From the IMG/VR virus record IMGVR_UViG_3300031707_000100, positions 1 through 33,593 of that record: 33,593 bases of DNA; one strand, written 5' to 3'. A program made the translations under genes and the position numbers. Under the pieces are notes generated by a model. The model was not told where the DNA came from. It ran no database searches and saw nothing but the letters and a program-made list of their open reading frames with translations. The DNA comes from a virus. Every line of letters starts with the position of its first letter. Position 1 is the stretch's first letter. Positions 3 through 32,626 of this stretch are shown piece by piece.

Positions 3-659
3 AAAAAAGCAACATTCATTGATAAAGATTTTGGCGCATGGCATGCATATGTTCATAATGTGACTCGTGGTCATTGTCATCCAAGCAGAGCAAAGAATAA
101 CGCTCGATTGACTTGTATGAAGAGATATGGATCTCTTACGCCGCTGAGCAAAGGAATAGTAAGAATAAAATTTGAAAAAGATCATCTTTTGCTGCATGGT
201 GTTTCAAATCCTATGCAACGAACAGATATAAAGAATAAAGTCAAATCTACTCTTATGAAAAATTTCGGTGTCGACAATGCGCAAAAATCACCTGAAATAA
301 GAAGAAAAACAGATCGATCTCGACGCCACAAGAAAGTTTTTTATAACTGGAAAACAAATGATGAAGTTGTTACTGTCGGTTCATATGAATCATCAGTAGT
401 AGCATGGCTTAATGATAATAAGATTGAGTATATTTGGCAACCATCATTTGTAATACCTCGCAATCATAGTCTTGGTGGCAGGGTATATTTCATTGATATG
501 CAAATTCTGTCTGGTGAATTTGCAGGAAAATTCATAGAGATAAAAGGTGCTTGGATTCGGCCAATGCAGAAACAAAAGTGGGATTGGTTTAAATCAATTC
601 ATAATGACAATGCAATTCTTTGGTATTTGTCTGATCTCAAGAAACTAGGAATTATGTAA
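3..659 (+). CDS. Free-standing homing endonuclease, PD-(D/E)XK-like, 5'-truncated
   Basis: The frame is open to the left window edge, so the gene is cut at its 5' end; a GTG at 60 is not needed as start. The N-terminal half has the repeated 'YG-x-x-x-P' style elements (MKRYGSLTPL, then a diverged HGVSNPMQ, then MKNFGVDNAQKSPEIRRK) that are common in phage homing endonucleases and are thought to bind DNA. The C-terminal half has an acidic residue in GSYESSVVAWL, then YFIDMQI, then FIEIKGAW, which reads as a PD-(D/E)XK nuclease core (D followed by E-x-K). The stop codon TAA overlaps the portal ATG (TAATG), and the portal ribosome site AGGA (647-650) lies inside this gene, so the two are translationally coupled. 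It probably cleaves an intron-less or intein-less allele of the neighbouring portal gene; that target is inferred. A Vsr-like mobile nuclease is the main alternative. Confidence 0.7.
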   Translation, partial: KKATFIDKDFGAWHAYVHNVTRGHCHPSRAKNNARLTCMKRYGSLTPLSKGIVRIKFEKDHLLLHGVSNPMQRTDIKNKVKSTLMKNFGVDNAQKSPEIRRKTDRSRRHKKVFYNWKTNDEVVTVGSYESSVVAWLNDNKIEYIWQPSFVIPRNHSLGGRVYFIDMQILSGEFAGKFIEIKGAWIRPMQKQKWDWFKSIHNDNAILWYLSDLKKLGIM

Positions 660-3600
660 TGGCAAAACCTGACCAAAATTTATTTCAGAAGCTTACTAGA
701 CTGTTTAGATCAGGTCCTGTCGTAAGACGGAAGTTACGCAATCTGGATACTACCATTGCTGTGGCTGACAAGACAAAGAGCAGCGGAACATTGCTTTTTC
801 AGAAATCGATGTCGCCGACGTATGCTTCGATCACTGCCAACGCGTATAACCTTACAGAGCGCCTGATGCGTTATCAAGATTTCGGCGAGATGGAGTACTG
901 CATCGATGGTGCAACCAGAATTGCTCAACTTGATGGATTTGTGACTATTGAGGAGCTTGCAAGAAGATGTGCTGAGAACCCAGAGTATAAGTTTGTTGTT
1001 TACTCATATGATCATGAGAAGAAAAAGATAGTTCCTGCGTGGGGTAAGCAGGCTAGACAAACATGTGTTGATCACGCTTTTCGTGTGACATTTGATAGTG
1101 GTTTATCAATTATTGCATCTGCTAATCACAGACTTATGCTACGAGATGGATCATATAGAACAATAGAGGATCTCAAATTAGGCGACACAATGATGCCGTT
1201 CTATAGGAAGGATCTCTTTGATTCTAAAAATGTTGAATCATCTGGTTACAGATGGGTATATACGACAAATCCTGAAGAGGGACGACACGGTTGGGTTCGT
1301 GAACATCAGTTAGTTGCTTCGTGGGTTAATGACAGACAATTAACAGATGATGAGGTTGTGCATCACGTCAATTTTAACAAAAATGATAATAGAATCGAGA
1401 ACCTTAGGGTAATGTCTCGATCTGATCATACAAGACTTCATTCATTTGAACTTAATGCTAAGAAGTGGGATGATTCAAATAGCGAATGGATTGAGAAGTT
1501 TAAGAAAGACCATGCTCGACGGATGGTAAAAAATGCCCCGACAGCACGTCTAGATGTTACATTTGGTAGGATCCTTGAAACATGTGAGTCTTTAGGCTTT
1601 AACATGAGCAAAGTATCATCGGCGCTTGATGTAAACTTCAATCTTATCAAATCCAGACTTGCCGATCATGGATTTAATAATTTCGAAACCTTTAAGCAGA
1701 CATACGAGAATCCAGATCATATTGTGCCTAATAGTGTTGATCGATCTAGAACAATCAATGATATTACGCTAAGTGAGATAACTTCTCTTGCTTCACAGAA
1801 TGATACGAAGCTATCATTATCAATGAAGCTTGGCTGCACTGTCAATGTATTAGATAAGTTCCTGTGGCGAAAATCAGGATTGTCATGGATGCAGCTTAGA
1901 GATAATCTGGGATTTCAAACAAGGCAAGATCAAAGAGGTGGTCGTCCAAAAGGATCGAATAATCACCCAGTAACATTTCAGGATGTATGTAACATCTATT
2001 CCAAAGACATGACATTGCCTCTTCTATCTGAGGCACTCTCTGTGAACAAGAACACTGTTCTATCTCGATTATCTCAGAATGGATTCAAAGGTTTCAATGA
2101 TTTTGCTCAGAGCTATGCAAATCATAAAGTGGTCTCAATTGAATATCATGGAGAGATTCCTCTTTATGACCTTACAGTTGACGGATATAAGAACTTTGCA
2201 ACAGATACAGTTATCTCTCATAACACAGCAGAAATTGCAAGTGCGTTAGACATTTATTGTTTAGCACCAGATACGATCATTCCTTTGCTCAATGGCACTA
2301 AACTTACAGTTAAAGAGCTATTTGATTCAAAGAGTGAAAATTTCGAAGTGTATTCATTTGATAATGATAACTGCAAATTTGTTCCAGGCCTATGTTCACG
2401 TGTCGTAAAGACAGGTACTAATCAACAGCTCTTTAGAATTACATTTGATGATGGCACATCTGTACGACTTACAGAAAATCATCTAGTTTTACTTACAGAT
2501 GGATCTTATAAGCGTACAAAAGATCTAATGCCCGCAGATAGCATTCGTTCAATGTATGCAAAGATATCATCTTTTAGCACAGAAGATAGAATTGATTGCG
2601 ATGAACAGATCAAGCCAGCGAATGGTTTGATTTATACACATAAAATTGTTGCTGAACATGTTTCACCCGAACTAAATGGCGATGTACATGTCAATCATAA
2701 GGTAGCATCTGTTATACCAGACGGATTTGACGATGTATTCGATTTGCAAGTAGATCGGTGGCATAATTTTGCAATAGCAAGTGAACCTACAGCATCATCA
2801 TGCATCATTGTTCATAATTCAGATGAAACCTGCGCAGTAGATGACAAAGGACGATCTCTTCACATCTATTCTGATAATGAAAAAATCAGAGAAATACTCG
2901 AAGATCTCTTCTACAATACTATCAACGTAGAATTCAATCTACGTTCCTGGACGAGAAACTTGCCAGTTCACAAAGACACATACATACCACTTCTGGATGG
3001 GTCCACGTTGACAATAGAGAATCTTTCCAAAAAGATGAAGGCAAACCCCGATTGGACACCGTGGGTTTATTCTGTTCAGGATGTGACACATCGAATGGTA
3101 CCTGGAAAGGTTACGTGGTGTGACTTGACAAGAAAAGATAGTGAAATTGTCAGAGTCTGGCTGGATGATGGTTCATATGTTGATTGTACACCTGATCACA
3201 GAGTTACGATGAGAGACGGTTCGAGCAAGGAAGCACAACATCTTTCATCTGGTGAGAGCCTAATGCCTTTCTATCGAAAAACAAGTAATCGATCTGCCGC
3301 CGCGGCTATGGATGGATATGAAGAGGTCTACGATCCTGCATCTGGTCGGTATGTTTATACACACAGTCGAGTCGCAGAAATTCTCGAAGAAGGAAAGATA
3401 AAGAACGGGAGATGGTTAGTAACTCATCATAATGATATTGACAAGTCGACTCCGCGGTTCATTCGAGCCGAAAAGAGCCAGAAGATGACAGGTATCGTCC
3501 CGTCAATGAGAGAGAAACATCCATCACAAGCCGGAAAAGAATCACCATCGTATATGAACCACAAAGTTGACAGGATTGAGAGACTGTCCAATACATCAGA

Positions 3601-6600
3601 CGTCTATTGTATGGAAGTTCTTGGTCCTGTTGGAGAGCATGACAGACACAGATTTATGACCTTAACGAATAGGGTTAACTATGATGGGCTAACTGTTCAA
3701 AATGATTCAGGAATTTGTCTCGAAAACTGTAAGTACGGAGATTGCTTCCTCTATAATGACGTGTCACCCGAACACGGTGTCATAAATGCAATTCCAATTC
3801 CTGTAAATGAGATAGAAAGAGAAGAGAACTTCGATCCTAACGATCCAATGGCTGTTCGTTATCGCTGGGTCACACTCGGAAATCGAACATTGGAAAACTG
3901 GGAAGTAACACATTTTCGACTTCTAGGAAATGACATGTTTCTTCCATACGGTTCATCAGTCATTGAACCTGCACGAAGAATATGGCGTCAGCTGATACTC
4001 ATTGAGGACGCAATGTTGGTGTATCGTGTTGTTAGAGCACCTGAAAGAAGGGTGTTCTATATTGATGTGGCGAATATCCCGCCTGAAAATGTGGAGATGT
4101 ACGTAGAACAACAGAAGACAGCACTGAGATCGACACAGGTTGTAGATACTAAGACAAGTCGCGTCGATCTTAGATATAACCCACTTTGTCATTTTGGTAA
4201 TGATTACATATACTTGTGTGATGGTACAAAGAAAACATTTTCAGATTTGTCAGAAAATTGGGATGTATATAAGGATAATGTATGGACATGGTCTCTTGAT
4301 AAAGAACAACACGTTGTCCCTACAAAGATTCTTTGGGCCGGAAAGACAATCGAGTCAACAAAATTTGTCGAAGTTGAACTTGATGACGGACAAATCATTA
4401 GGACAACGCCTGATCATGGGTGGCTTCTTCGAGATGGCACTGAAATTAAGGCAAAAGATCTCAAGCCGAATGATTCTCTCATGCCTTATTATACGAAGAC
4501 TAATCAGTCACTCACTAGTCGCTACGGTTCAAAAATAAATCCGTACGTCGATATTTACGATCCAGGCCTTGGAAAATATCGTTCAGCACATCGTATATCA
4601 GGTGAATGGAAATATGGCGAATGTAAGTTGCCAAATGTAATTCATCACGTTAATCATGTCAAGCATGATAATCGACCTGATAATTTGCAAAAAATGACTC
4701 AAAAGGAACACAGTATCCTTCATGCTGACATTGTGAAAGCATGTAACGTTTCTACTCGAGGTCGAGAAAAATCAAGACAAACATTCATCAAAACACATCA
4801 ACAATACGATTTCTCCAAGATTGCAACTGATTGTTGGAACAAACCTGTTATTCGCAAGAAAAGAGTTGATTCTCTCACACTAAAGACAGATTCTAGATTT
4901 GTTGGATACGTGGGATCTGTGATCTATGAACTTGGCTCAACTGCTAGAGAGCATCAGGTAAGAGCATGCTTAAACAGATCACAAGATTTCAAGGATTATC
5001 TTAAGCACTTAAATCCTGAATTCAAAAATGGATTTTCAGATCAACTTAGCAAGAGTTCATTTTTGAAGATCCTTCGACGTTACAATTTTAGTAACTTGAG
5101 AGAAGTTAAGGACTATGTTGCAGCCAATAGAGCACCACTCGATAAGATTGCTGCATATTGTGAAACAAACAGGCCCACATCTCGCAAGCATATTTCTCAA
5201 GCTTTTGGTATTAGCACATATGACTTAAATCGAGTTATGATGCGAAACGGTCTGACGAAAAATGAATTTGACTCACGTTACCTTGCAACAGGCGGTTACT
5301 ATGCCAAGACGACAGTTTCATGTTCTAATTGCGATAATAAATATGTTGTCAATCCAAGAAGCAAGATCACTTCAGCGGGTCGCACATTTTGTGGACGAAT
5401 TTGTTATGATGCTTATCGTGCATCTGGAAAACTTAAAAATCACAAAGTAATTGCCGTTCGATTCACTGACTGGGAAGCACCAGCGTATGGTGTTACAGTT
5501 GAAAATTCAACACATATTATTTCAACCGGTGGATCGTCTCTTGATCAAAATCAAAAAAATGACATTTACTCCGGAGTATTTGTACGGAACTCAGTTGACG
5601 AAGATTATTTCATCCCTGTTCGCGGCAATGACAGTGGGACAAAAATAGACACGCTCGCCGGCGGTCAAAATACAGCAGCCGTTGAAGACGTGGCGTACAT
5701 ACAGAAAAAATTATTCGCAGCGCTTAAAATACCTCGGGCATATCTCGGCTACGATGAATCACTTAGTTGTTTAGTTTCAACAACTTGCATTCCTACATTT
5801 GCTCGTGCAGGAAACAGAGCATTGACAATCAAAGAGTTGTCCGATGAGTGCCGACTGGATCCTCAAGCTTTTTCAGGGCGTCATCATGCATATGCCTGGG
5901 ATCATGTCAAGCGCAAAATTGTTCCCGGTAGGATCCTTAAGGCCTGGGAGACAAAACAAGTCACGAAGCTGGTCGACGTTGTCTTCGATGACGGCTCTGT
6001 GCTTCGGTCAACACCTGAGCATCCCATCATGTTGCGCAACGGTGCAGGATATCGACCAGCAGGCCAGTTGAGACCTGGTGATGCTGTCATGCCTATGTAC
6101 TCGAAATTGTCGTCAAAAGCCACGGGTGATTACCTCGATGGTTACCACAAGTTCCTCGACCCAGATACAAACAAGTGGCAGTATTCTCATCGTGTCGCTG
6201 GAACGAGCAAATACCCTGCATTGAGGAATAAGAATGTTATCCATCATGTCAATTTTGATAAGTTGAATAACGATCCGAGTAACCTACTTTTCATCAAGGA
6301 CGGTAAGATTCATCGGCAACTGCATGCGACACTGAACAAGATCAACAAATGTTACGTAGGGAAGGGAAACCCTCGATTCAATCATGATATCGCATATTCA
6401 GATGTTCTAATGACAGCTCCCACGACATCCACTAAAAAAGAACTCATCTCTCGTCTGGGAATTGGATATCGAGTTTTTGATAGGCTATTGTCAGATGAAG
6501 GGCTCTCTTGGTCGAAGTTTGCGGATGACAATATGCCGAAAGCACGATTTGCTCATCGCTGCGGCGGCTATGACATCACTTACGAGGATGTCGCATATGC

Positions 6601-8089
6601 TGCACGTCGTCTTATGTCAGAAGCCACTGTCAACACAGTTGCAGATGCATTGGGTGTCTCTACAGCTGTCGTACAAAAACGAATGATGGATGCAGGATTC
6701 AAAAATTGGGGTTCCTTCAAGCGAAATATCGTTTGGAACTTGAACAAGGGTGCAGTCCTTTCATCTCTCGCCCGACATGGAACCCTTAAAGCTGCTTTTG
6801 AATCAGATTATCGAGATCGCTGTGGATTTCAGGCCTTGCTCAAATACGTTCAATTAGAGTGGGGAGGCATTCGACTTGCCAAGAAAGCGGCTGAACAGAT
6901 CGGAATCAGTAACCATGTCGTGACTGAAGTTAGGATCGTCGATCTTCCAGTCGCAGTGCCAGTATATGACCTCGAAGTAGAGGGACATCACAATTTTGCC
7001 GCGTCACTTACTACTGTACCTGCAGAATCTAACAACTTAACAGAATCGATTGAATGGGCAGACAACTGTGTGATTGTATCAAACAGCAAGGCCACGCTGG
7101 CTCAGGAAGATATAAGATTTTCACGTACGATAAGTGTCGTTCAAAAGACTATAATTTCTGAGCTCAATAAGCTCGCAATAATACATCTTTACGCACACGG
7201 ATTTGATTCTGAAGATTTGCAGAATTTCACACTGCGCCTTTCAAATCCTTCTACGATTGCACAGCAGCAAAAGCTAGAACTGTGGAGAGCCAAATTCGAG
7301 ATCGCCGGCACAGCTCCAGAGGGTCATATGAGCAAGGACTTTGTTCGTAGAGAGATATGGGGTCTCAATGATGAACAGTGTAAGGCAATCGATGATCATC
7401 GACTGAAAGAGAAGCTTGTCGACAATATGATTGAAAATGCCACAACAGATGAAGGTGGCGACGATGACGAAGGTGGTGAAGAAGACATGTTTGGCGGTGA
7501 TGACGCCGGCGGCGAATCAGATGCCGAACCGGCTGGCGGAGCCGGTGAAGGCGGCGCTGAAGAAGATAAAGGTGGCGAGGCATCAGGCGGAGAAGATCTC
7601 TTTGCCGGCCATGACATGATGTCAAATAATCCTGCAGTAAGTCTCATGACAGCAGGCGATGACCCAGAGGATGATGAAGATTTTCCTGCTAAGTTAAGTG
7701 TTTCAAATGTAAAGACACCCGTAAATGTTCAGCGCCAACTAGACAAAGTCCTCTATAATAGATCCAGGATAAGACATCATGGCGCATCGAAAACGCATAT
7801 GCCTGATTTTGCAAAGATGACGAATTCAAAGGGTGACGATGATCCTTTTGACAACAGCTGGATGAAGTCTCTCGTCAAAAATCCTTTCGGTGAATCAACT
7901 GCACCACTTCATAAGACAGTCATTACAGGCGATGTCATGAGATCATTGTCAAATATGCAAAGAAGATTCACGCGTGAAATGCCAACAGTACAGTCAAAGT
8001 CAGTTCTAACTGAAGTCGCAGGATACTTAGAAGGAGCCGACAATATTGAAAACGAAGAGGTCCTCATCATCGACGAGGATAACGAATAG
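659..8089 (+). CDS. 20: Portal vertex protein (gp20-like) interrupted by five inteins
   Basis: The product is 2476 aa, but removing five in-frame inteins leaves 80+11+48+153+59+334 = 685 aa. The joined exteins read as a T4-type portal: EMEY/TAEIASALDIY/SDETCAVDD, RSWTRNL/CKYGDCFLYNDV, a DMFLPYGSSVIEPARRIWRQL stretch, RVVRAPERRVFYIDV, RYNPL/SVDEDYFIPVRG and YDESLS/SKATLAQEDIRF. All insertions lie in conserved stretches, as is usual for inteins. The portal forms the dodecameric ring at the capsid vertex through which DNA is packaged and to which the neck attaches. T4 gp20 is 524 aa; the excess is mostly the C-terminal part, with a Gly/Asp/Glu-rich linker near residues 2262-2320 and then a basic and an acidic tail. 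The start ATG at 659 has AGGA eight bases upstream. The order portal-protease-scaffold-capsid matches T4. The call is secure; splicing itself is inferred from motifs. Confidence 0.95.
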   Translation: MAKPDQNLFQKLTRLFRSGPVVRRKLRNLDTTIAVADKTKSSGTLLFQKSMSPTYASITANAYNLTERLMRYQDFGEMEYCIDGATRIAQLDGFVTIEELARRCAENPEYKFVVYSYDHEKKKIVPAWGKQARQTCVDHAFRVTFDSGLSIIASANHRLMLRDGSYRTIEDLKLGDTMMPFYRKDLFDSKNVESSGYRWVYTTNPEEGRHGWVREHQLVASWVNDRQLTDDEVVHHVNFNKNDNRIENLRVMSRSDHTRLHSFELNAKKWDDSNSEWIEKFKKDHARRMVKNAPTARLDVTFGRILETCESLGFNMSKVSSALDVNFNLIKSRLADHGFNNFETFKQTYENPDHIVPNSVDRSRTINDITLSEITSLASQNDTKLSLSMKLGCTVNVLDKFLWRKSGLSWMQLRDNLGFQTRQDQRGGRPKGSNNHPVTFQDVCNIYSKDMTLPLLSEALSVNKNTVLSRLSQNGFKGFNDFAQSYANHKVVSIEYHGEIPLYDLTVDGYKNFATDTVISHNTAEIASALDIYCLAPDTIIPLLNGTKLTVKELFDSKSENFEVYSFDNDNCKFVPGLCSRVVKTGTNQQLFRITFDDGTSVRLTENHLVLLTDGSYKRTKDLMPADSIRSMYAKISSFSTEDRIDCDEQIKPANGLIYTHKIVAEHVSPELNGDVHVNHKVASVIPDGFDDVFDLQVDRWHNFAIASEPTASSCIIVHNSDETCAVDDKGRSLHIYSDNEKIREILEDLFYNTINVEFNLRSWTRNLPVHKDTYIPLLDGSTLTIENLSKKMKANPDWTPWVYSVQDVTHRMVPGKVTWCDLTRKDSEIVRVWLDDGSYVDCTPDHRVTMRDGSSKEAQHLSSGESLMPFYRKTSNRSAAAAMDGYEEVYDPASGRYVYTHSRVAEILEEGKIKNGRWLVTHHNDIDKSTPRFIRAEKSQKMTGIVPSMREKHPSQAGKESPSYMNHKVDRIERLSNTSDVYCMEVLGPVGEHDRHRFMTLTNRVNYDGLTVQNDSGICLENCKYGDCFLYNDVSPEHGVINAIPIPVNEIEREENFDPNDPMAVRYRWVTLGNRTLENWEVTHFRLLGNDMFLPYGSSVIEPARRIWRQLILIEDAMLVYRVVRAPERRVFYIDVANIPPENVEMYVEQQKTALRSTQVVDTKTSRVDLRYNPLCHFGNDYIYLCDGTKKTFSDLSENWDVYKDNVWTWSLDKEQHVVPTKILWAGKTIESTKFVEVELDDGQIIRTTPDHGWLLRDGTEIKAKDLKPNDSLMPYYTKTNQSLTSRYGSKINPYVDIYDPGLGKYRSAHRISGEWKYGECKLPNVIHHVNHVKHDNRPDNLQKMTQKEHSILHADIVKACNVSTRGREKSRQTFIKTHQQYDFSKIATDCWNKPVIRKKRVDSLTLKTDSRFVGYVGSVIYELGSTAREHQVRACLNRSQDFKDYLKHLNPEFKNGFSDQLSKSSFLKILRRYNFSNLREVKDYVAANRAPLDKIAAYCETNRPTSRKHISQAFGISTYDLNRVMMRNGLTKNEFDSRYLATGGYYAKTTVSCSNCDNKYVVNPRSKITSAGRTFCGRICYDAYRASGKLKNHKVIAVRFTDWEAPAYGVTVENSTHIISTGGSSLDQNQKNDIYSGVFVRNSVDEDYFIPVRGNDSGTKIDTLAGGQNTAAVEDVAYIQKKLFAALKIPRAYLGYDESLSCLVSTTCIPTFARAGNRALTIKELSDECRLDPQAFSGRHHAYAWDHVKRKIVPGRILKAWETKQVTKLVDVVFDDGSVLRSTPEHPIMLRNGAGYRPAGQLRPGDAVMPMYSKLSSKATGDYLDGYHKFLDPDTNKWQYSHRVAGTSKYPALRNKNVIHHVNFDKLNNDPSNLLFIKDGKIHRQLHATLNKINKCYVGKGNPRFNHDIAYSDVLMTAPTTSTKKELISRLGIGYRVFDRLLSDEGLSWSKFADDNMPKARFAHRCGGYDITYEDVAYAARRLMSEATVNTVADALGVSTAVVQKRMMDAGFKNWGSFKRNIVWNLNKGAVLSSLARHGTLKAAFESDYRDRCGFQALLKYVQLEWGGIRLAKKAAEQIGISNHVVTEVRIVDLPVAVPVYDLEVEGHHNFAASLTTVPAESNNLTESIEWADNCVIVSNSKATLAQEDIRFSRTISVVQKTIISELNKLAIIHLYAHGFDSEDLQNFTLRLSNPSTIAQQQKLELWRAKFEIAGTAPEGHMSKDFVRREIWGLNDEQCKAIDDHRLKEKLVDNMIENATTDEGGDDDEGGEEDMFGGDDAGGESDAEPAGGAGEGGAEEDKGGEASGGEDLFAGHDMMSNNPAVSLMTAGDDPEDDEDFPAKLSVSNVKTPVNVQRQLDKVLYNRSRIRHHGASKTHMPDFAKMTNSKGDDDPFDNSWMKSLVKNPFGESTAPLHKTVITGDVMRSLSNMQRRFTREMPTVQSKSVLTEVAGYLEGADNIENEEVLIIDEDNE
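899..2224 (+). other. Intein 1 of the portal gene, with HNH endonuclease
   Basis: Residues 81-522 (442 aa). It starts at Cys81 after GEMEY and ends VISHN, with the +1 residue Thr523. Block A is CIDGATRIAQLDG. Block B is SANH (Ser in place of the usual Thr). Block F is PLYDLTV, and block G ends with the canonical His-Asn. The inserted HNH nuclease has His235-His236, Asn248 and His257/His261. After it come two helix-turn-helix-like units of a repeated type (near 'SSALDVNFNLIKSRL' and 'LSEALSVNKNTVLSRL'), probably for target recognition. All catalytic positions that I can identify look intact, so both splicing and homing may be active. Joining the flanks gives EMEY-TAEIAS, consistent with a portal sequence. 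Confidence 0.93.
2258..2818 (+). other. Intein 2 of the portal gene, mini-intein without nuclease
   Basis: Residues 534-720 (187 aa), starting CLAPDTIIPLLNG (Cys1, block A) and ending CIIVHN with +1 Ser721. Block B is TENH and block F is DVFDLQV. No HNH histidine pair is found; only a short linker (around GLIYTHKIVAEH) remains where the larger inteins carry the nuclease. The size fits a splicing-only mini-intein. It begins only 11 extein residues (TAEIASALDIY) after intein 1 ends. The post-block-B segment (DSIRSMYAKISS) resembles the equivalent segment of the other four inteins, which suggests common descent with loss of the nuclease. Confidence 0.9.
2963..3727 (+). other. Intein 3 of the portal gene, no Cys1/Ser1, decayed HNH
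   Basis: Residues about 769-1023 (255 aa). Block A is readable as KDTYIPLLDGSTL, but the residue aligned with Cys1 of the other inteins is Pro769 (or Val770); no Cys or Ser lies at a usable distance. Block B is TPDH. Block F reads DVYCMEV, with Cys where most inteins have Asp. The end is GICLEN followed by Cys1024 of CKYGDC, so the penultimate residue is Glu, not His. A Cys at this block F position together with a non-nucleophilic first residue is the mark of class 3 inteins; the Trp expected two residues after the block B His is Val here. An HNH remnant (His923-His924, HHNDIDKS) has lost its spacing and downstream His. The exact N-terminal boundary is uncertain by one or two residues. Confidence 0.85.
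4187..5590 (+). other. Intein 4 of the portal gene, HNH plus zinc ribbon
   Basis: Residues 1177-1644 (468 aa), from Cys1177 (CHFGNDYIYLCDG) to FVRN, +1 Ser1645. Block B is TPDH, block F is PAYGVTV, and the penultimate residue is Arg instead of His. The HNH core has His1329-His1330 (IHHVNHVKHDN) and a later KEHSILH. Near the C-terminus is a zinc ribbon: CSNC (Cys1555, Cys1558), then SKI, then RTFCGRIC (Cys1578, Cys1582). The same arrangement recurs in the small protein at 10345-10614. A helix-turn-helix-like unit precedes it (SQAFGISTYDLNRVMMR). Joined flanks give RYNPL-SVDEDYFIPVRG, typical of T4-type portals. Confidence 0.92.
5768..7084 (+). other. Intein 5 of the portal gene, with HNH endonuclease
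   Basis: Residues 1704-2142 (439 aa). It starts at Cys1704 (CLVSTTCIPTFARAG) after YDESLS and ends CVIVSN with +1 Ser2143 of SKATLAQEDIRF. Block B is TPEH and block F is PVYDLEV; the penultimate residue is Ser. The HNH core has His1862-His1863 (IHHVNFDKLNN) with a following DGKIHRQLH. Helix-turn-helix-like units follow (around LISRLGIGYRVFDRLL and VADALGVSTAVVQKRM), the second very like units in intein 1. The local base composition appears slightly richer in G+C than in intein 4, which may mean a different acquisition time; this was judged by eye only. Confidence 0.92.
7440..7620 (+). repeat. Gly/Asp/Glu-rich low-complexity segment of the portal
   Basis: The reading frame here encodes a run of acidic and small residues (patterns such as EGGDDDEGGEED, GGDDAGGESD, GGAGEGGAEED) built from GGTGGC/GAAGAT-like codons. 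It separates the last conserved portal extein from a C-terminal part that has no match that I recognise. It may be a flexible acidic linker. The repetitive codons also produce long open frames on the other strand that are not genes. Confidence 0.8.
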
Positions 8090-8983: not shown

Positions 8984-9724
8984 ATGACCTACATCGTCTA
9001 TAGACATGTCTGCACTGAGACTGGAAAGTCATACATTGGTTTTACAAAGAACTCCATGGAGAAACGCTGGAGCGAGCACGTCAGTTTGGCATTCAGATGT
9101 TATAATCACAATCCGAGTAGAAAATATCACTTTCAGAACGCCATCAGGAAATACGGCCTGGCGGCATGGACACATGAGGTCATACAGGAGAATATAGGCT
9201 CTGTGGAAGAGGCATGTTTTGCCGAGATCCATTGGATAGCAAAGTTATCGACTAGATCACCCGAAGGATACAACGAGACGCCTGGTGGACGAGGTGTTAG
9301 AGACATGTCACCAGCAGCGAAGGAGCGTCACAGACTAGCCACGAAATTGGCATTGTCTGATCCTGATGTACGAAGAAGAATGTGTGACTTTCAGAAGACA
9401 GCCCATAATACACCTGAATCAAAGATGAAGAATAGCATGGCTCAGAAGCTTGCTCAGGTCAGACCTGATGTTGCTGAGAAGAAGCGCAGAGCCATGTATC
9501 TACATCGATCAGATCCGAATTTTAAGTGTCCTCGGTCAAAACCCGTCTTACAACTCAGCCTGGATGGTCGAGTCATTGCTCGATTCGAGTCAGCAACGGA
9601 AGCATCTAAGCTAACAAACACCAACGTAAGTCACCTGTGTGAGGTCGCTCGTGGTGAAAGAAAAATCAGCGGTGGATTTCGGTGGAAATATATAGATACG
9701 ATTGGAGAGATGAAAAATGTCTGA
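8984..9724 (+). CDS. GIY-YIG homing endonuclease
   Basis: 246 aa. The N-terminus has the GIY-YIG fold signature in variant form: MTYIVYRH, then SYIGFT, then EKRWSEH with the catalytic Arg, then a helix with CFAEIHWI holding the metal-binding Glu. The middle has NUMOD3-type repeats (around KERHRLATKLALSDPDVRRRM and later copies). The end (KPVLQLSLDGRVIARF to GGFRWKYI) is a NUMOD1-type DNA-binding module. The stop overlaps the start of the protease gene by 8 bases, and the protease ribosome site lies within it. Such genes cut alleles that lack them and spread by repair; the likely target is the portal/protease junction region. This is a free-standing gene: I see no group I intron features around it. 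Confidence 0.9.
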   Translation: MTYIVYRHVCTETGKSYIGFTKNSMEKRWSEHVSLAFRCYNHNPSRKYHFQNAIRKYGLAAWTHEVIQENIGSVEEACFAEIHWIAKLSTRSPEGYNETPGGRGVRDMSPAAKERHRLATKLALSDPDVRRRMCDFQKTAHNTPESKMKNSMAQKLAQVRPDVAEKKRRAMYLHRSDPNFKCPRSKPVLQLSLDGRVIARFESATEASKLTNTNVSHLCEVARGERKISGGFRWKYIDTIGEMKNV

Positions 9725-16050: not shown

Positions 16051-16870
16051 TTGGACTGTAAGCTCTGTGAATTTCACAATGACAACTTGAAACGCTTCTC
16101 TGATCATCTCAGATCAGTTCATAAGCTAAGCTCTGAACAGTACACAATCGAAACGGATTACAGCGGGACAAGGCCAACATGTCCTGTCTGCGGGCAGCCC
16201 GTGAGATATGTGTCTTTTTCATTCAAGAAGTACTGCAAAGATCATGCTCGGCTAGCAATGGTCGAAGGTGGAAAGATCGGTGGTCAAGCTGAGGCATGGA
16301 ACAAGGGAGAGACCAAAGAAACAGATCCTCGAATAGCAGCTATTGCTTCGTTAATGACGGGTTCTGCTAACCCGTTCTATGGACGAAAGCACACACAGGA
16401 GACACTCAGAAAAATCTCTGAAAATAAGATGTTGGGAACAATGTCAATCGAGCAAAGAATATCTGAGAGGTCGTCGGAGTTCACTCTCGTCACTTCGTGT
16501 TCCCAGGAATGCAAAACGGTACGGAAGTGCCATCGAGGTCGCACGATTTGCTTCTCTACCAGGAATGACAATACCAGGAGGTTTGTCAAAGTTGATGTCA
16601 GCAGCCACAACATGGTCTAAGACATCAGGTCACGATCGGATAATGACATATGTGGATCAGAGAATCGGTTCAGGCAAAGGATATCAGGCTGTCGGATTTC
16701 AGGAAGTCTCAAAGACCGACATCGATTATTGGTACACAGATGGCGTGATGCGGTACGACAGGTTTAAGTTTAGAGCATGCGAAGGAAAATCAGAACGACA
16801 GGTTGCATCAGAGGCAAGAATGTCACGTATCTATGGCTGTGGAGCCAGTATTTTAAGCTTTGTTTTCTGA
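16051..16870 (+). pseudogene. Frameshifted homing endonuclease (zinc finger, NUMOD3)
   Basis: The first frame (TTG at 16051) encodes a C2H2-type finger (CKLCEF to HLRSVHKLSSEQY), a second cysteine pair (CPVC) and a NUMOD3 motif (NPFYGRKHTQETLRKISE). Near 16480-16500, after SEFTLVT, sense is lost; the same protein type resumes in the +1 frame up to 16870 with RFASLPGMTIPGG, RIGSGKGYQAVGFQ, DYWYTDGVMRYDRFKFR and the ending MSRIYGCGASI, which is typical of phage homing endonuclease C-termini. A part of the family's usual middle seems missing too, so deletion plus frameshift is likely. It lies between the capsid gene and the small tagged genes. A programmed frameshift or sequencing error is less likely but not excluded. 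Confidence 0.75.
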
Positions 16871-25600: not shown

Positions 25601-25967
25601 TCCTGTCGTAGGACAGCAGGCAATGTCTGGTTCAATACCTGTTGTCATTTCAAGTAATCAATCATGGCCTACAGTTGGTACACATGCAAATGCATGGAAT
25701 GCAGCTGCTGTTGCAGCTAATGGAGTATCAACTGCAGTTGATTGTCAATATACACCTGCAATTACAGCATTTGGAAATTCAAGCGGAAATACAACAATTA
25801 CAATTCAAGTATCACAGGATAATTCAAATTTTTATGATGCTTCATCAACTTCATTAACCGGCGGCGCCGCAGATTTTGCAATATCCATATCTGCCGGCGC
25901 AAGATATGTACGTCTTAAATCAAGCGCCGCCCGAACAATCACAGCAACAATTGCCGGTAAAGGATGA
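22665..25967 (+). CDS. Large repeat-built fibre or appendage protein
   Basis: 1100 aa, starting in an ATGA overlap with the previous gene. It contains five copies of a 54-aa module (GGSDGTNLQAGRVFDVDTSS to TSADPFRVDPTG) alternating with a second module (RLTDGSAFYDATKTGQLP to GQKTMSGSIPVVI). Spacing between copies of the first module is 552, 660, 660 and 552 bases. The C-terminus is a distinct beta-sandwich-like domain (ITIQVSQDNSNFYDASSTSL to GARYVRLKSSAARTITATI). No Cys except one; low charge; very rich in Ser/Thr/Gly. This suits a long, thin trimeric fibre or whisker. Which appendage it belongs to cannot be told. Confidence 0.85.
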   Translation: MSDSPAVIIYGTDLTGSITEKGISANPLITSNIGTGVNNAALPSSSILVGGSDGANLQAARVFDVDTSSDKQFVLGVTLRKSALSGSLEYGTSADPFRVDPTGTTTQPVTGSVGITNTVAISAASLPLPSGAAQEHVTAGSYNSSRLTDGSAFYDATKTGQLPSALAGGKLDVNIGTWLGSAVPTTGQKTMSGSIPVVIASDQGAISVSGTIIITDAAEGLNASLAPTSSIQIGGSDGTNLQAGRVFDVDTSSDKQFVFGVTLRKSALSGSLEYGTSADPFRIDPTGTTIQPVNGTVTSNQGSAAILSSAWPIRITDGTVSASISANNALKVDGSAVTQPVSAASLPLPSGAAQEHVTAGSPNSARLSDGSAFYDATKTGQLPTSLAGGKLDINLGTWIGSAVPTTGQKTMSGSIPVVISSDQTALLISGSISATNPSVGTNDSTAPTSTTQIGGSDGTNLQAGRIFDVDTSSDKQYVIGVTLRKSALSGSLEYGTSADPIRVDPTGTTIQPVNGTVTANQGTSAALVNAWPIRITDGTVSASISSNNALKVDGSAVTQPISAASLPLPSGAAQEHVSAVSYNSSRLTDGSAFYDATKTGQLPTSLAGGKLDINLGTWLGSVVPTTGQKTMSGSIPVVISSDQTAILISGSISATNPSVGTNTSTAPTSTTQIGGSDGTNLQAGRIFDVDTSSDTQYVIGVTLRKSALSGSLEYGTSADPIRIDPTGTTTQPVTGSVGITNTVAISAAALPLPAGAAQEHVTAASYNASRLTDGSAFYDATKTGQLPAALAGGKLDVNIGTWIGSAVPTTGQKTMSGSIPVVIASDQSAILISGSISATNPSVGTNASTAPVSSTQIGGSDGTNLQASRVFDVDTSADKQFVLGVTLRKSALSGSLEYGTSADPIRVDPTGTTTQPISAASLPLPAGAAQEHVTAGSPNAVRLSDGSAFYDAVKTGQLPAALISSRLDVNVGSWMGSTVPVVGQQAMSGSIPVVISSNQSWPTVGTHANAWNAAAVAANGVSTAVDCQYTPAITAFGNSSGNTTITIQVSQDNSNFYDASSTSLTGGAADFAISISAGARYVRLKSSAARTITATIAGKG

Positions 25968-28900
25968 CAATGAGTAACGAGTTCCCAAGACAACCAGTTC
26001 CAAGTATAGCAGATCCAAATTCGAAATTAATTTTTTCGAATGATACAGTTACAGGAAGCAGCTCAGTTGTAAACACTGGGTTTGGTGCAAAAGAAGTATC
26101 TGTTGTAGTAAATATTTTGAATATTCCAACAGGAACAGGCCCTGGCATACAATTTACTCTGCAAGAAGTTGATCCGGGCGACAATACGACTTCATTTGGA
26201 TCTAGTTCATCAACATCGATGATAACAGGTTCTGGTGTTTTTACTGCATCTTTACGTTCAACATTTGCAGGTACAATCAAGACATCTTGGACAGTTAGTG
26301 GAAGTACACCTTCATTCACAGGCGTTTATACTACGCTTGTATCGAAGTCGACAACTGTATTGTTAGGTGTAGATAGTTCTGGAAATCAACAACAAATTAG
26401 AGCCGATTCTCTTGGAACTTTAATAACTCAGGGTTCTTCGACAGGCACGGCGACACCAGTTACAGGATCTGTGTCAGCACGTCTCACTGATGGTGCAGCA
26501 TTCTATGATGCTGCAAAGACCGGTCAATTACCATCTGCCTTAGTTGGAGGCCGCCTTGATGTTGTTGTCGGTGCAGCACTTCCAGCAGGTACAAACAATA
26601 TCGGTGATGTTGATATACTTTCAGTTCCTGCACCTTTGTCAACTACGGGTACCGGTACAGAAGCTGCCGCGCTTAGAGTCACAATTGCAACAGATTCAAC
26701 TGGTATACTTTCTGTTGATGATAATGGATCTAGTCTAACAATCGATTCAACGCAGTTACCCGCTGCACTTGTAGGTGGAAGATTTGACGAGAATATAGGC
26801 TCATGGCTTGGATCAACTGCACCATCTGTTGGTCAGAAAACAATGGCTGCTTCTGTTCCCGTTGTGATATCAAGTGATCAGACAGCTATACTGATTTCAG
26901 GATCGATATCAGCTACAAATCCATCTGTTGGAACAAATAATTCCACAGCACCAACTTCAACAACTCAGATTGGTGGTTCAGATGGAACAAATCTTCAGGC
27001 AGGACGCACATTTGATGTTGATACATCTTCTGATAAGCAGTACGTCATTGGTGTAACTCTTCGCAAAAGTGCGCTGAGCGGCTCATTGGAGTATGGAACA
27101 TCAGCCGATCCAATAAGAGTTGATCCAACAGGAATGACAACACAGCCTGTAACAGGATCATTAACTGCACAACTTCAGAGTGGACCCAAAGGGTCAACAG
27201 CAGTTGCATCTGTAACAAGCACGGCTTCAGGCGCAAATCATCAACCACTTGATGTTGCAATTTATGATGCAGCAGGAAATCAGATCACGACTTTTGGCGG
27301 CGGAACACAATACGGAGATGGAGCTGCTAGAACAGCAACAAACGTCACAGGGACCATAATGATGGTTGATGACGGTACAAATATTCAGTCAGTCTCTGGT
27401 GATGCTTCGGGTCGACTTAATACTGTTATCAGTTCTTGGTTTGGTTCAACTGTGCCAACAGCAGGCCAGAAGACAATGTCTGGGTCAATTCCATTCACAC
27501 TTGCAAGCGATCAGGGAAATGTAATAATTGGTATATCAGGAACCATCAGTTCCGGAAATAGTTCTACATCAATACTCACAGGAAGCCAAGTATTTACAGG
27601 TCTTGGTGTTGATACACTCGCCGCTGCATCAATATCAATACAAGTATTTGCAAATGTCGCAAGTGAAACTGATGGACTTAAATTTCAGTGGTCTCAAGAT
27701 AATGTCAATTGGGATGAGACGTTATCATTTACACTTGCTGCTTCTTTGGGACAAGCATTTATGTTTGGACCACATGCTCGTTTCTTTCGAGTGCAGTACA
27801 CAAATGGAGTAGTAGGACAAGCTTCATTTCGCTTACAGACAATTTTAAAACCAGTCATCGTTCGACATGATACAATTCGTCTTGCAGATGTTCCTATTGG
27901 CGAACAAGATGCAACTGTTGTTAAGGCAGTCATATCAGGAAAAACAACAGCAGGCGGCGGCACATATGTCGATGTAAAAGTAAATCCTTCAGGTGCAGTT
28001 CAAGTTGGAGGTTCTGTAGCAATAACTGATAGTGGAGGAACAAATACAACAGCTGTTAAGGCAGCAAGTACAGCTGCAATTGCTACAGATCCTGCGCTTG
28101 TTGTTGCTATATCTCCAAATAATTCTGTTTCAATTACAGCTGCATCTCTTCCTCTACCTTCGGGTGCTGCTCAGGAGCATACTGGTTCTGCTAGCTATAA
28201 TTCATCACGTCTCACTGACGGATCTGCTTTCTATGATGCTACAAAAACAGGACAGCTCCCTACTTCTCTTGCAGGAGGTAAACTAGATGTAAATCTTGGA
28301 ACGTGGCTAGGTTCAACTGTACCAACAGCGGGACAGAAGACAATGTCTGGATCGATCCCAGTTGTAATTTCTAGTGATCAGACAGCTATTCTTATCTCAG
28401 GATCGATATCAGCAACAAATCCAAGCGTAGGAACAAATGCTTCGACTGCTCCTGTTTCTTCAACTCAAATAGGAGGGTCAGATGGAACTAATCTGCAATC
28501 AGGCAGAGTCTTTGACGTAGATACATCTTCTGATAAACAGTATGTTTTAGGTGTTACACTTCGCAAGAGCGCCTTAAGCGGATCATTAGAATACGGAACA
28601 TCAGCTGATCCAATAAGAGTTGATCCAACTGGTACTACTACACAGCCTGTAACAGGATCATTAACTGCACAACTTCAGAGTGGACCCAAAGGGTCAACAG
28701 CAGCTGCATCTGTAACAAGCACGGCTTCAGGCGCAAATCATCAACCACTTGATGTTGCAATTTATGATGCAGCAGGAAATCAAATATCAACATTTGGTGG
28801 AGGAACACAGTTTGGCGACGGATTTGCTCGAACAGCAACAAACGTCACAGGGACCATAATGATGGTCGACGATGGAACAAATATTCAATCTGTCTCTGGT

Positions 28901-31900
28901 GATTCTTCAGGAAGACTCAATACAGTTATGAGTTCGTGGTTTGGTTCAACTGTACCAACAGCGGGACAGAAGACAATGTCTGGCTCTATTCCCTTTACAC
29001 TTGCCAGTGATCAATCTGCCATACTGATTTCAGGATCTATAACAAATCCAAGTATTGGAACAAATGCTTCAACAGCACCAACTTCAACAACTCAAATTGG
29101 TGGCTCTGATGGAACTAATCTTCAAGCCGGCAGAATATTTGATGTTGACACATCTTCAGACAAGCAGTATGTTTTAGGCGTCACTCTTCGTAAGAGTGCA
29201 CTGTCTGGGTCGCTCGAGTATGGAACGTCAGCTGATCCAATTAGAATTGATCCAACAGGAACGACAACACAACCTGTTACGGGTTCAGTTGGAATAACTA
29301 ATGTCGTGTCTGTTACAACATCAGGATCGCTTCCTGTTATTATCAATGGTGTTGCAACAATCACCGGATCAGTTGCAATTACTGCTGCATCTCTACCATT
29401 ACCCGCTGGTGCCGCTACCTCAGCTAATCAATCCACGCTTGGTTCGCAGACTACTAAGATCAACGACGGCACCAATACCGCTTCGGTCATGGCAGCTAGT
29501 ACAACTGCTGTATACGCAGATAAGGCTCTCGTTGTAGCCATCTCGCCGAACAGCAATGACATTGCTGTGCTTGGTTACAATAATGGGGTAGGAGCATCTG
29601 CAACTTGGGATAACACTTCGAACCTACTTGAAAATATCGAAGCCATACCAGGAACTAACCCGTATGATGAGCCAACTGTCAGTATCTCACTGACACGTAC
29701 CGGAACAATTACAGCAGGCGAGATTTCGTTTCAGGGTTCGGACGCAACTGGTGGTGTTTGGTTCCCAGTAATGGCCACTCGCGTCGCTGCCTTCACGACA
29801 GAATCATCCTATCTGTTGTCTGGCTCGGCAGATACAATGTGGAAGGTGAGCGCCGCTGGATTTCCTAACATCCGCGTACAGCTCACCACGCAGATAACGG
29901 GCGCTGGCAGTGTCTTTGTCACGACCCTATGGGATGCGTCACCTATAGGTGACAATCGTTCCACTGTCGGACAATCTGACGAGACCAAGCTGAACGCTAC
30001 AGCTACTCTGAAGAGTGGTCTCAAGGGATCCTCTGCTGCGGCTTTGGTTACCAGTACGGCATCGGGAGCTGACCATCAGTCACTCGATGTGATAATCCGG
30101 AATGGTACCGGGCAGACACCCGAAGTACTAGACCCGTACACGGCAGCGCCGGCCTCCGCTCCGTCGCTCGTTGTAGCCATTTCTCCTAATTCAAATATTG
30201 TTACTGTGGGTCGCTACAGTAATGGAGCTGGAGAAGTCGCGACTTTAACCAACGCTACGGCAATCAATACAACAGTAGTAGCAGTACCAGCCAATGGCCT
30301 CGCAGCGGGCTCCAATGCGGGAACTGCAACTTTCTCAATGGTTCGTACCGGAACAATTTCGGGAGGTGAATTATCATTTCAGGGTTCTGATGACAGTGGC
30401 GCCTGGTTTCCAGTAAGAGCTGTTCGTACCGACACCTTCACCACAGCGACATCACAGTTACTATCGGGCATAACCGACGTGATGTGGAAGGTGAGTTGTG
30501 CTGGATTCGTCAGCATCCGAGCCAAACTCACCACAGTGATCACTGGTGCAGGCAGCCTCTTAGTCACGACCGAATGGGATGCGTCTCCCGTAGGAGACGT
30601 CACTGCGACTGTTGGTCAGAGCGACGAAACACTACTCAAGGCTACGGCCACTCTGAAGAGCGGTCTCAAGGGCTCTTCTGCGGCGGCTTTGGTTACCAGC
30701 ACGGCTTCTGGAGCTGATCATCAAATACTTGACGTTGCAATTTACGACGGTTCAGGAAACCAAATATCAACATTTGGTGGAGGAACGCAATACGTTGTAG
30801 ATGCAGCCGCCCCTACAACTCCAACTGGCAGCATTTCTCTTGCCCAGCGTGATGATCAGTTGTCAACAGTTACACCAGTCGAAGGTGATTGGATTCAGCC
30901 TCGTGCGAGTTCCAAGGGTGCGCTCTGGGTAACAATACCAGACATTAACGGTGATCCAATTACTTCGTTCGGCGGCGGAACTCAGTACACAGTCAATGCT
31001 GTAGCTCCTGCAGATCCTGTCGGAACAGCGCTAGTTGCAGAACGCGATGATCAACTCTCAACCCTGAGTGAAGTTGAAGGAGACTGGACCCAGGTAAGAG
31101 CTAGTGCCAAAGGTGCGCTCTGGGTGACGATCCCAGATACCAATGGCGATCCGATTACCAGCTTCGGCGGCGGTACCCAGTATGCCGACGGCGCCGTCCG
31201 GGGCACCTCCACAGGCACGCTCTTAATGGTTGACGATGGGGTAAATATTCAGTCTGCGCTTGGAAATACTTCTGGAGAACTTTATACAATTGCTAAACAA
31301 GGTCAAGCAGGTACACTTTCTGGTTCTTGGCCTACAAGAATAACAGACGGTACGACTGTTTCCGCAGTAAAAGCTGCAAGTACAGCTGCTGTTGCTGCAG
31401 ATCCTGCACTTGTTGTTTCTTTGAGTCCCAACAGTCCTGGCTATATGTCACAAAATGTTACTGTTAGTTCAGCCAACAGTTCAACTGCTACTTTGGCAGG
31501 CGCAGCATCTTTTGTCGGTACAAGCGTTTCTACACTAGGTGTTGCTACAATACAATTAATCGTATTTTCTGATGTTGCGTCATCAGCCGCCGGATTAGCT
31601 ATTCAACAAAGCTCAGATGGAACAAATTGGGATTTTACCGATACATTTACTGTTTATGCTTTAACGGGTTTTAACACAACTGTTGCAGCTATTGGATCAT
31701 TTGCTCGAGTTGTGTACACAAACGGAGCATCAGCACAGGGAGTATTCAGGCTACAAACACTTTTGTGTCCTGTTGCACAGCTTTTACATATTAATGAAAC
31801 ATCTGCAATACAAAGCATCACTGCACAGGATACAGCAACATCAGGCACAATTTATTCAAATGGACAAGTAATTTACGGAGGAACACCTACTGCTAATAGT

Positions 31901-32626
31901 GCTGTTTCTGCCTCGCTACAAAGTTGGAATTCTTGTGTATTACAAACTTCTGGTACTTGGTCAGGAACGCTTGCACTTGAAGCAAGTATAGACGGCGGTG
32001 TCACATGGACTAAAAAATCACTTCATCTCGCCGGGACAGATATTCAGGCGATGTCATTTACATCAAACTTTTTTGGCGGCTTGAATACAACAGGTTATAG
32101 CAATGTTCGTATACGTTCAACTGCTGCATGGACGGGAACAGCAACAGTTCGATACATTCAATCAGAAGATTTGAATTCTGTATTTATTGGAAATGCATTG
32201 CGCAACGCCGACAGTAGCGGAAATATACAGCCTGCAGCGGATATTGCATCTCGTAAATTTTTTACAGCAGTTACAGATGGAACAAATACAGCAACAGTTA
32301 AGGCGGCTAGCGTCACAGCCCTGGGTGCAGACACTGCGCTTGTTACTCAATTACGATCTGCTTCATCAGGAACAATAACAAACGTGTCTTCTTCTGTGAC
32401 ATCTGTTCAATTAATTGCAGCAAATACAGCACGAATTGGTGCAGTAATATTCAATGATTCAACATCAGTATGTTTTGTGAAGTTTGGAATAGCAGCAGGT
32501 CCCACAAATTTCACGTATAGACTTACTACAAATGCTGTTCTTGAAATTCCGTGGTCATATACAGGAAGAATCGATGGAATTTGGACAACTGCAAATGGAA
32601 ATGCTAGGATTACGGAGTTAGTCTAA
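25964..32626 (+). CDS. Giant repeat-built fibre or appendage protein
   Basis: 2220 aa (ATG 25964, overlapping the previous stop; a second ATG lies at 25970). A unique N-terminal domain (NEFPRQPVPSIADPNSKLIF, then beta-rich) is followed by three copies of the 54-aa module shared with the previous gene. Further units are built on GPKGSTAVASVTSTASGANHQPLDV and VTGTIMMVDDGTNIQS. Two G+C-richer units of about 190 aa each (ISFQGSDATGGVWFPV and DTMWKVSAAGFPNIR; LSFQGSDDSGAWFPV and DVMWKVSCAGFVSIR) come next, then FGGGTQY repeats and a C-terminal domain ending IPWSYTGRIDGIW. It probably forms a receptor-binding or baseplate-linked appendage. Confidence 0.85.
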   Translation: MTMSNEFPRQPVPSIADPNSKLIFSNDTVTGSSSVVNTGFGAKEVSVVVNILNIPTGTGPGIQFTLQEVDPGDNTTSFGSSSSTSMITGSGVFTASLRSTFAGTIKTSWTVSGSTPSFTGVYTTLVSKSTTVLLGVDSSGNQQQIRADSLGTLITQGSSTGTATPVTGSVSARLTDGAAFYDAAKTGQLPSALVGGRLDVVVGAALPAGTNNIGDVDILSVPAPLSTTGTGTEAAALRVTIATDSTGILSVDDNGSSLTIDSTQLPAALVGGRFDENIGSWLGSTAPSVGQKTMAASVPVVISSDQTAILISGSISATNPSVGTNNSTAPTSTTQIGGSDGTNLQAGRTFDVDTSSDKQYVIGVTLRKSALSGSLEYGTSADPIRVDPTGMTTQPVTGSLTAQLQSGPKGSTAVASVTSTASGANHQPLDVAIYDAAGNQITTFGGGTQYGDGAARTATNVTGTIMMVDDGTNIQSVSGDASGRLNTVISSWFGSTVPTAGQKTMSGSIPFTLASDQGNVIIGISGTISSGNSSTSILTGSQVFTGLGVDTLAAASISIQVFANVASETDGLKFQWSQDNVNWDETLSFTLAASLGQAFMFGPHARFFRVQYTNGVVGQASFRLQTILKPVIVRHDTIRLADVPIGEQDATVVKAVISGKTTAGGGTYVDVKVNPSGAVQVGGSVAITDSGGTNTTAVKAASTAAIATDPALVVAISPNNSVSITAASLPLPSGAAQEHTGSASYNSSRLTDGSAFYDATKTGQLPTSLAGGKLDVNLGTWLGSTVPTAGQKTMSGSIPVVISSDQTAILISGSISATNPSVGTNASTAPVSSTQIGGSDGTNLQSGRVFDVDTSSDKQYVLGVTLRKSALSGSLEYGTSADPIRVDPTGTTTQPVTGSLTAQLQSGPKGSTAAASVTSTASGANHQPLDVAIYDAAGNQISTFGGGTQFGDGFARTATNVTGTIMMVDDGTNIQSVSGDSSGRLNTVMSSWFGSTVPTAGQKTMSGSIPFTLASDQSAILISGSITNPSIGTNASTAPTSTTQIGGSDGTNLQAGRIFDVDTSSDKQYVLGVTLRKSALSGSLEYGTSADPIRIDPTGTTTQPVTGSVGITNVVSVTTSGSLPVIINGVATITGSVAITAASLPLPAGAATSANQSTLGSQTTKINDGTNTASVMAASTTAVYADKALVVAISPNSNDIAVLGYNNGVGASATWDNTSNLLENIEAIPGTNPYDEPTVSISLTRTGTITAGEISFQGSDATGGVWFPVMATRVAAFTTESSYLLSGSADTMWKVSAAGFPNIRVQLTTQITGAGSVFVTTLWDASPIGDNRSTVGQSDETKLNATATLKSGLKGSSAAALVTSTASGADHQSLDVIIRNGTGQTPEVLDPYTAAPASAPSLVVAISPNSNIVTVGRYSNGAGEVATLTNATAINTTVVAVPANGLAAGSNAGTATFSMVRTGTISGGELSFQGSDDSGAWFPVRAVRTDTFTTATSQLLSGITDVMWKVSCAGFVSIRAKLTTVITGAGSLLVTTEWDASPVGDVTATVGQSDETLLKATATLKSGLKGSSAAALVTSTASGADHQILDVAIYDGSGNQISTFGGGTQYVVDAAAPTTPTGSISLAQRDDQLSTVTPVEGDWIQPRASSKGALWVTIPDINGDPITSFGGGTQYTVNAVAPADPVGTALVAERDDQLSTLSEVEGDWTQVRASAKGALWVTIPDTNGDPITSFGGGTQYADGAVRGTSTGTLLMVDDGVNIQSALGNTSGELYTIAKQGQAGTLSGSWPTRITDGTTVSAVKAASTAAVAADPALVVSLSPNSPGYMSQNVTVSSANSSTATLAGAASFVGTSVSTLGVATIQLIVFSDVASSAAGLAIQQSSDGTNWDFTDTFTVYALTGFNTTVAAIGSFARVVYTNGASAQGVFRLQTLLCPVAQLLHINETSAIQSITAQDTATSGTIYSNGQVIYGGTPTANSAVSASLQSWNSCVLQTSGTWSGTLALEASIDGGVTWTKKSLHLAGTDIQAMSFTSNFFGGLNTTGYSNVRIRSTAAWTGTATVRYIQSEDLNSVFIGNALRNADSSGNIQPAADIASRKFFTAVTDGTNTATVKAASVTALGADTALVTQLRSASSGTITNVSSSVTSVQLIAANTARIGAVIFNDSTSVCFVKFGIAAGPTNFTYRLTTNAVLEIPWSYTGRIDGIWTTANGNARITELV
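27141..27282 (+). repeat. Near-identical direct repeat, left copy (partner at 28641)
   Basis: This 142-base block recurs at 28641-28782 with a single difference (T at 27204, C at 28704). The offset is exactly 1500 bases, and identity continues in patches further on (for example the 30 bases around 27331-27360 and 28831-28860). Confidence 0.92.
28641..28782 (+). repeat. Near-identical direct repeat, right copy (partner at 27141)
   Basis: Second copy of the 142-base block. Recombination between the two would delete or duplicate exactly 500 codons without breaking the frame. Confidence 0.92.

Follow-up and report, generated by a model that had tools for sequence, protein, structure and literature searches.

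Many inteins can occur in a single gene, as in a ribonucleotide reductase gene that reportedly comes from Trichodesmium. That gene, a metabolic one, was described with four inteins and with three group II introns as well (Liu, Yang and Meng 2003, cited in PMC4649490). Haloarchaeal mcm, an archaeal helicase gene, has four intein sites (PMC10643990), and inteins of phage portals are already on record as the PORT inteins of mycobacteriophages, a single listed group, in cluster C1 phages (PMC5050341). The present analysis concerns the T4-type (gp20-type) portal gene of a virus of bacteria, located at 659..8089 on the plus strand of IMG/VR record IMGVR_UViG_3300031707_000100 (positions 1 to 33,593; the window is this whole stretch of 33,593 nucleotides). 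The gene encodes a precursor of 2476 amino acids with five inteins. It thus resembles the Trichodesmium-type gene in its many inteins but differs in holding five of them in an unbroken frame of a phage structural gene. Like mcm, the T4-type portals have several sites with patchy occupancy in a conserved gene, whereas they use about 15 insertion points, up to five of which are filled together. We consider it likely that mobile, predicted self-splicing inteins have invaded this portal gene five times over, the third following a class-3-type route.

The region 659..8089 was one uninterrupted open reading frame (ORF) of 2476 codons, which matched Portal_T4 in Pfam (E=5.6e-53) and the portal family in PHROG. 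Removal of the five inteins, which occupy 72.3% of the ORF, left an extein of 685 amino acids. In tblastn, a gene of Microcystis phage Mel-JY01 aligned without interruption with all (100%) of the first 465 residues of the joined extein at 40% identity, and intein-free portals on IMG/VR contigs reached 89% identity. By this lengthwise match to gp20 (Pfam, and tblastn with the 465 residues searched), the joined extein is, judged from its sequence, a complete portal. A first-pass annotation of the window had claimed five inteins of 442, 187, 255, 468 and 439 amino acids in 659-8089, amounting to about 72% of the coding sequence, and a gp20-type portal rebuilt with sensible joins by their removal. 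Motif parsing gave exactly the same sizes, hidden Markov models independently supported the five inteins, and the Portal_T4 match and the unbroken alignment bore out the rebuilt portal. A second, separately assembled contig (IMGVR 3300035701_000417) was 99.85% identical over 11,786 bases, with 18 substitutions. An assembly artefact or chimaera could be excluded because this contig repeats the identical set of five inteins despite the 18 differences, which within the inteins are mostly synonymous (7 silent, 2 replacing).

Intein boundaries were parsed by the block A, B, F and G motifs under a junction rule that demanded Cys, Ser or Thr at position +1. All five inteins contained the four blocks and ended in Asn or Gln, with Cys, Ser or Thr as the next residue, and all were in-frame insertions missing from the empty alleles of the intein-free portals. 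Five stretches of the ORF matched Intein_splicing (Pfam, E=2.7e-60) and five matched intein_Nterm (NCBIfam), while HNH_3 (Pfam) was detected in three, with the HNH cores falling within inteins 1, 4 and 5. Class 1 inteins begin with Cys, Ser or Thr, and inteins 1, 2, 4 and 5 all begin with Cys (Cys1).

On the plus strand, extein segment E1 (659..898, 80 amino acids) precedes intein 1 (899..2224, 442 amino acids), which is inserted after portal residue 80 (EMEY/C...HN/T) and has Cys1, Asp at F:4, a penultimate His and an HNH endonuclease with its core (VVHHVNFNKNDNRIENL...H) at 1355..1441, located by the Pfam and PHROG scan and the motif. The 11 residues of E2 (2225..2257, TAEIASALDIY) separate it from intein 2 (2258..2818, after residue 91, LDIY/C...HN/S), a mini-intein of 187 amino acids without endonuclease, which has an allelic intein in portal locus L147. 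Following E3 (2819..2962, 48 amino acids), intein 3 (2963..3727, 255 amino acids, after residue 139, TRNL/P...EN/C) begins with Pro (Pro1; codon CCA at 2963..2965) in place of the Cys, Ser or Thr of a class 1 start. It lacks the penultimate His and has Cys at F:4 (codon TGT at 3608..3610), the putative first nucleophile. An HNH-motif remnant (THHNDIDK...) persists at 3422..3460 with the remaining HNH deleted, and the stretch after it is disordered in the predicted structure. E4 (3728..4186, 153 amino acids) leads to intein 4 (4187..5590, 468 amino acids, after residue 292, YNPL/C...RN/S) with Cys1, Gly at F:4 and an HNH core at 4637..4723 (Pfam and motif). E5 (5591..5767, 59 amino acids) is followed by intein 5 (5768..7084, 439 amino acids, after residue 351, ESLS/C...SN/S) with Cys1, Asp at F:4 and an HNH core at 6236..6325 (Pfam and motif). 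The gene is completed by E6 (7085..8086, 334 amino acids), which has an acidic C-terminal tail. The endonuclease is lost from inteins 2 and 3, in the latter by deletion of most of it; this loss had gone unnoticed in the first-pass annotation, as had the Pro1 and Cys F:4 of intein 3.

By definition, class 3 inteins start with a residue that is not a nucleophile and possess Cys F:4, Trp B:12 and Thr G:5 (PMC5222942). Intein 3, which falls outside class 1 with its Pro at position 1 and whose junction was set by the empty allele and structural superposition, combines a non-nucleophile at position 1 with Cys F:4; at the rest of the WCT signature it has Val at B:12 and Leu at G:5. Its predicted structure revealed a HINT fold, with a predicted local distance difference test score (pLDDT) of >=90 in 163 of 265 residues. 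When the model was superposed on solved inteins, Pro1 coincided with their residue 1 and its last Asn with their terminal Asn; the Z score was 20.8 for the class 1 NrdJ-1 intein and ranged from 15 to 17 for inteins of class 3.

A profile of seven inteins with Pro1, Cys F:4 and no penultimate His retrieved 152 related stretches. With few exceptions, the retained loci came from sites 139 and 292 of T4-type portals, and the family comprised at least 57 distinct inteins, which were compared with 79 Cys1 or Ser1 inteins. His B:10 and Cys F:4 were present in all 57 Pro1 inteins, the penultimate His in none and Thr G:5 in one, while 8 of the 79 Cys1/Ser1 inteins had Cys F:4. Position B:12 was mostly Phe, Trp or Tyr, with Trp a minority, and Ile, Leu and Val also occurred. 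A scan of genome contigs with the Pro1 alignment found a single clear relative, in a Wolfebacteria metagenome-assembled genome. Natural Pro1 mini-inteins were observed at portal site 292, with 173 amino acids in loci L264/L265 and 157 in L247, lengths that leave no room for an endonuclease domain. Moreover, locus L219 has two Pro1 inteins in one portal gene, at sites 292 and 319, the latter being a third site for the family.

The canonical class 3 inteins, such as those of mycobacterial DnaB and phage TerL (PMC5222942, PMC7664689), share with the Pro1 inteins the non-nucleophile at position 1, Cys F:4, His B:10 and the HINT fold. The Pro1 portal inteins differ in lacking Thr G:5 (56 of 57), the penultimate His and often Trp B:12, and in carrying HNH; their splicing domain is 15% identical. 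Substitution of Trp by Ala at B:12 blocked splicing in three class 3 inteins (PMC5222942). The split intein AceL NrdHF works as a class 3 intein, its mechanism having been shown, despite missing Trp B:12 and the penultimate His as intein 3 does; unlike intein 3, it has Ala1, retains Thr G:5 and lies outside portals (PMC7891396). Since intein 3 has part of the class 3 signature and AceL NrdHF tolerates the missing Trp and His, intein 3 is called class-3-like, not a proven class 3 member. It probably excises via a residue other than the usual first nucleophile: Cys F:4 would act first, the N-extein would pass to Cys+1, and Asn cyclisation would come last.

A class-2-like use of these residues in the Pro1 inteins, in which the N-junction comes under direct attack from Cys+1 or Ser+1 while Cys F:4 serves otherwise, was considered improbable. 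It would account for a non-nucleophile at position 1 together with the Cys+1 of site 139, a pairing that matches class 2 as defined in PMC5222942. The +1 residue nevertheless varies among the Pro1 inteins, from Cys at site 139 to a majority of Ser or Thr at site 292, whereas Cys F:4 is invariant in all 57, which argues against such a route.

For the locus as a whole, it is proposed that mobile inteins entered the T4-type portal gene at five separate sites and that each would excise itself to give the normal 685-amino-acid portal. Inteins 1, 2, 4 and 5 would splice through Cys1 (class 1). The HNH inteins may have spread during co-infection, homing into alleles that were empty, while inteins 2 and 3 may be late-stage elements, retained only because precise loss is rare. 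Certain residues weigh against this proposal: Gly at F:4 in intein 4, the penultimate His missing from inteins 4 and 5, and Val at B:12 in intein 3, although Phe, Tyr, Ile, Leu or Val in place of Trp is seen in other Pro1 members too. Some of them would equally suit a decaying locus, in which part of the five no longer splice and the gene is partly decayed or yields cleaved fragments. Here the missing penultimate His of intein 3 and the loss of most of its HNH may be added. However, zero stops or frameshifts were present over 2476 codons in two contigs, and the odd residues of intein 3 are common to other members of the Pro1 family. The portal is, furthermore, required for phage infection, and decay of this kind was judged very improbable.

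The origin of the Pro1 chemistry was approached with a tree built without the class-defining columns (position 1, F:4 and the three final ones) and with eight canonical class 3 references, from Gaia and seven other phages. The 57 Pro1 inteins and two Cys1 inteins fell inside a 79-member portal-intein group (support 100), apart from the eight class 3 inteins. Mean splicing-domain identity of the Pro1 inteins was 37% to the Cys1 inteins of site 292 and 15% to canonical class 3, with profile scores of 329 and 32, respectively. By sequence, their nearest relatives are the Cys1 HNH portal inteins of sites 80, 292, 317 and 351, which differ in having Cys1 or Ser1, many with a penultimate His, and a few of which also have Cys F:4. 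Cys1 and Cys F:4 occurred together in L155 and L179, within the Pro1 clade, and in six more inteins outside it; these eight are candidates for intermediate forms. Judged by similarity, the source of the route in intein 3 would be the Cys1 HNH inteins, not canonical WCT class 3.

Shared chemistry by descent between Pro1 and canonical WCT class 3 inteins was regarded as rather unlikely. Both pair a non-nucleophile at position 1 with Cys F:4, and forcing them into one clade, at a cost of 18.7 log units, was not rejected by the approximately unbiased (AU) test (p=0.217), a result that leaves separate origins short of significance. A strict single origin of Pro1, with Pro1 alone forced, was not rejected either (AU p=0.284). 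Against common descent stand the separation in the free tree, the identity difference given above, Thr G:5 in a single Pro1 intein of 57, and the HNH carried by Pro1 inteins where most class 3 inteins have LAGLIDADG motifs (PMC7891396). Because tree and identity support separation and the AU test leaves one clade unrejected, the view that class 3 chemistry arose a second time, in the Pro1 inteins, is favoured, not shown. Derivation of class 3 from class 1 has been argued to be unlikely, as the WCT residues grafted onto a class 1 intein failed (PMC7664689). In a broader view, which we hold to be evenly balanced, T4-type portals would be an intein nursery in which class-3-type splicing arose twice, passing from Cys1 HNH inteins via Cys1 with Cys F:4 to Pro1, and in which loads rise to five, even with two inteins touching.

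The distribution of inteins was followed across 217 portal loci, corresponding to 136 distinct genes, merged only where their site sets agreed, and 128 genes complete over the insertion sites, a sample biased towards intein carriers. Portals 88-89% identical to the extein contained zero inteins, and other portals among the 128 genes held different sets. Allelic inteins at the site of intein 1 (site 80) were found in 36 unique portal genes; on the portal tree, its occupancy required 34 changes for the 36 occupied genes against a shuffled-label mean of 31.7, compared with 15 against 28 at site 139 and 17 against 25.5 at site 292, all being rough figures. Patchy occupancy and the HNH domains point to selfish homing. 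Selfish homing followed by decay is the usual life history of inteins. The scattered occupancy and the empty or different sets of relatives are what selfish homing would lead one to expect, so that a timing role is not needed. The suggestion of the first-pass annotation that splicing could set the timing of head assembly found no support in these portals. A timing or regulatory effect of splicing on portal assembly, as the reason why the five inteins are retained, would be in keeping with the open state of all five frames, with the silent over replacing changes of the inteins between the two contigs and with the conditional splicing known in other inteins (PMC7360933). Open frames are nonetheless expected of any intein within an essential gene, close relatives carry none or other sets, and changes at site 80 are not below those of shuffled labels; such retention was deemed most unlikely, and selfish homing is preferred.

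At site 139, the +1 residue was Cys in 38 of 38 occupied genes, while the empty genes (n=97) had Val in 62 and Cys in 26. Sites 91, 229 and 242 had Ser or Thr at +1 when occupied (two genes each) and mostly Ala or Leu when empty. From these residues, splicing appears to be under selection. Two points tell against the overall proposal: the junction rule partly predetermines the +1 comparison, although not the choice of Cys at site 139, and a location of the sites at unusually conserved residues was not significant (p=0.13).

Among the 128 genes, 47 had no intein, 53 one, 15 two, 9 three, 1 four and 3 five; in the subset of 79 reached via the extein alone, the counts were none in 46, one in 28, two in 1, three in 2 and five in 2. 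The highest earlier count per gene in the literature searched was four, a comparison behind which no survey of all genes stands. Five inteins per gene is extreme, not unique. The annotation's claim that five is exceptional stood as far as rarity goes. Uniqueness was ruled out by two further portals, missed in the annotation, with five inteins each at other sites: L135 (sites 95, 139, 292 twice and 351; gene start lost at the contig end) and L214 (sites 72, 215, 229, 242 and 292). With the NCBIfam N-terminal model as an independent check, the L135 frame showed five inteins and that of L214 four, so the fifth intein of L214 (site 229) rests on motifs.

At L135:3197-5731, two inteins adjoin at portal site 292 with zero host residues between them (..ILLHN/CFQG..), and the first Cys of the second intein therefore doubles as the +1 residue of the first. 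No second tandem pair of this type was present in the final scan, and the literature search found no papers on tandem inteins as a topic. Inteins ending in Gln instead of Asn were observed at site 292 in L089, L135 and L197, in both Cys1 and Pro1 forms. Locus L094 (LR756508, uncultured phage, 484 kb) has a portal with three inteins at other sites, and the upstream ORF (4111-5892) holds an intein-like insert of its own.

The head gene cluster of the window also contains free-standing homing endonuclease genes or fragments (DUF7487/homing-endonuclease-like, GIY-YIG and HNH-like) at 3-659, 8984-9724 and 16051-16870, not far from the genes for the portal, protease and major capsid. An ORF of 2220 amino acids at 25964-32626, beside the tail genes, had zero PHROG matches.

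The sequences that pair Cys F:4 with Cys1 and with Pro1 make the question of a passage from class 1 to class 3 directly testable (cf. PMC7664689), and the small natural Pro1 inteins of 157 and 173 amino acids could become new splicing tools. For the portal family itself, a load of five inteins was seen three times with differing sites, which means that one gene family can bear such a load.
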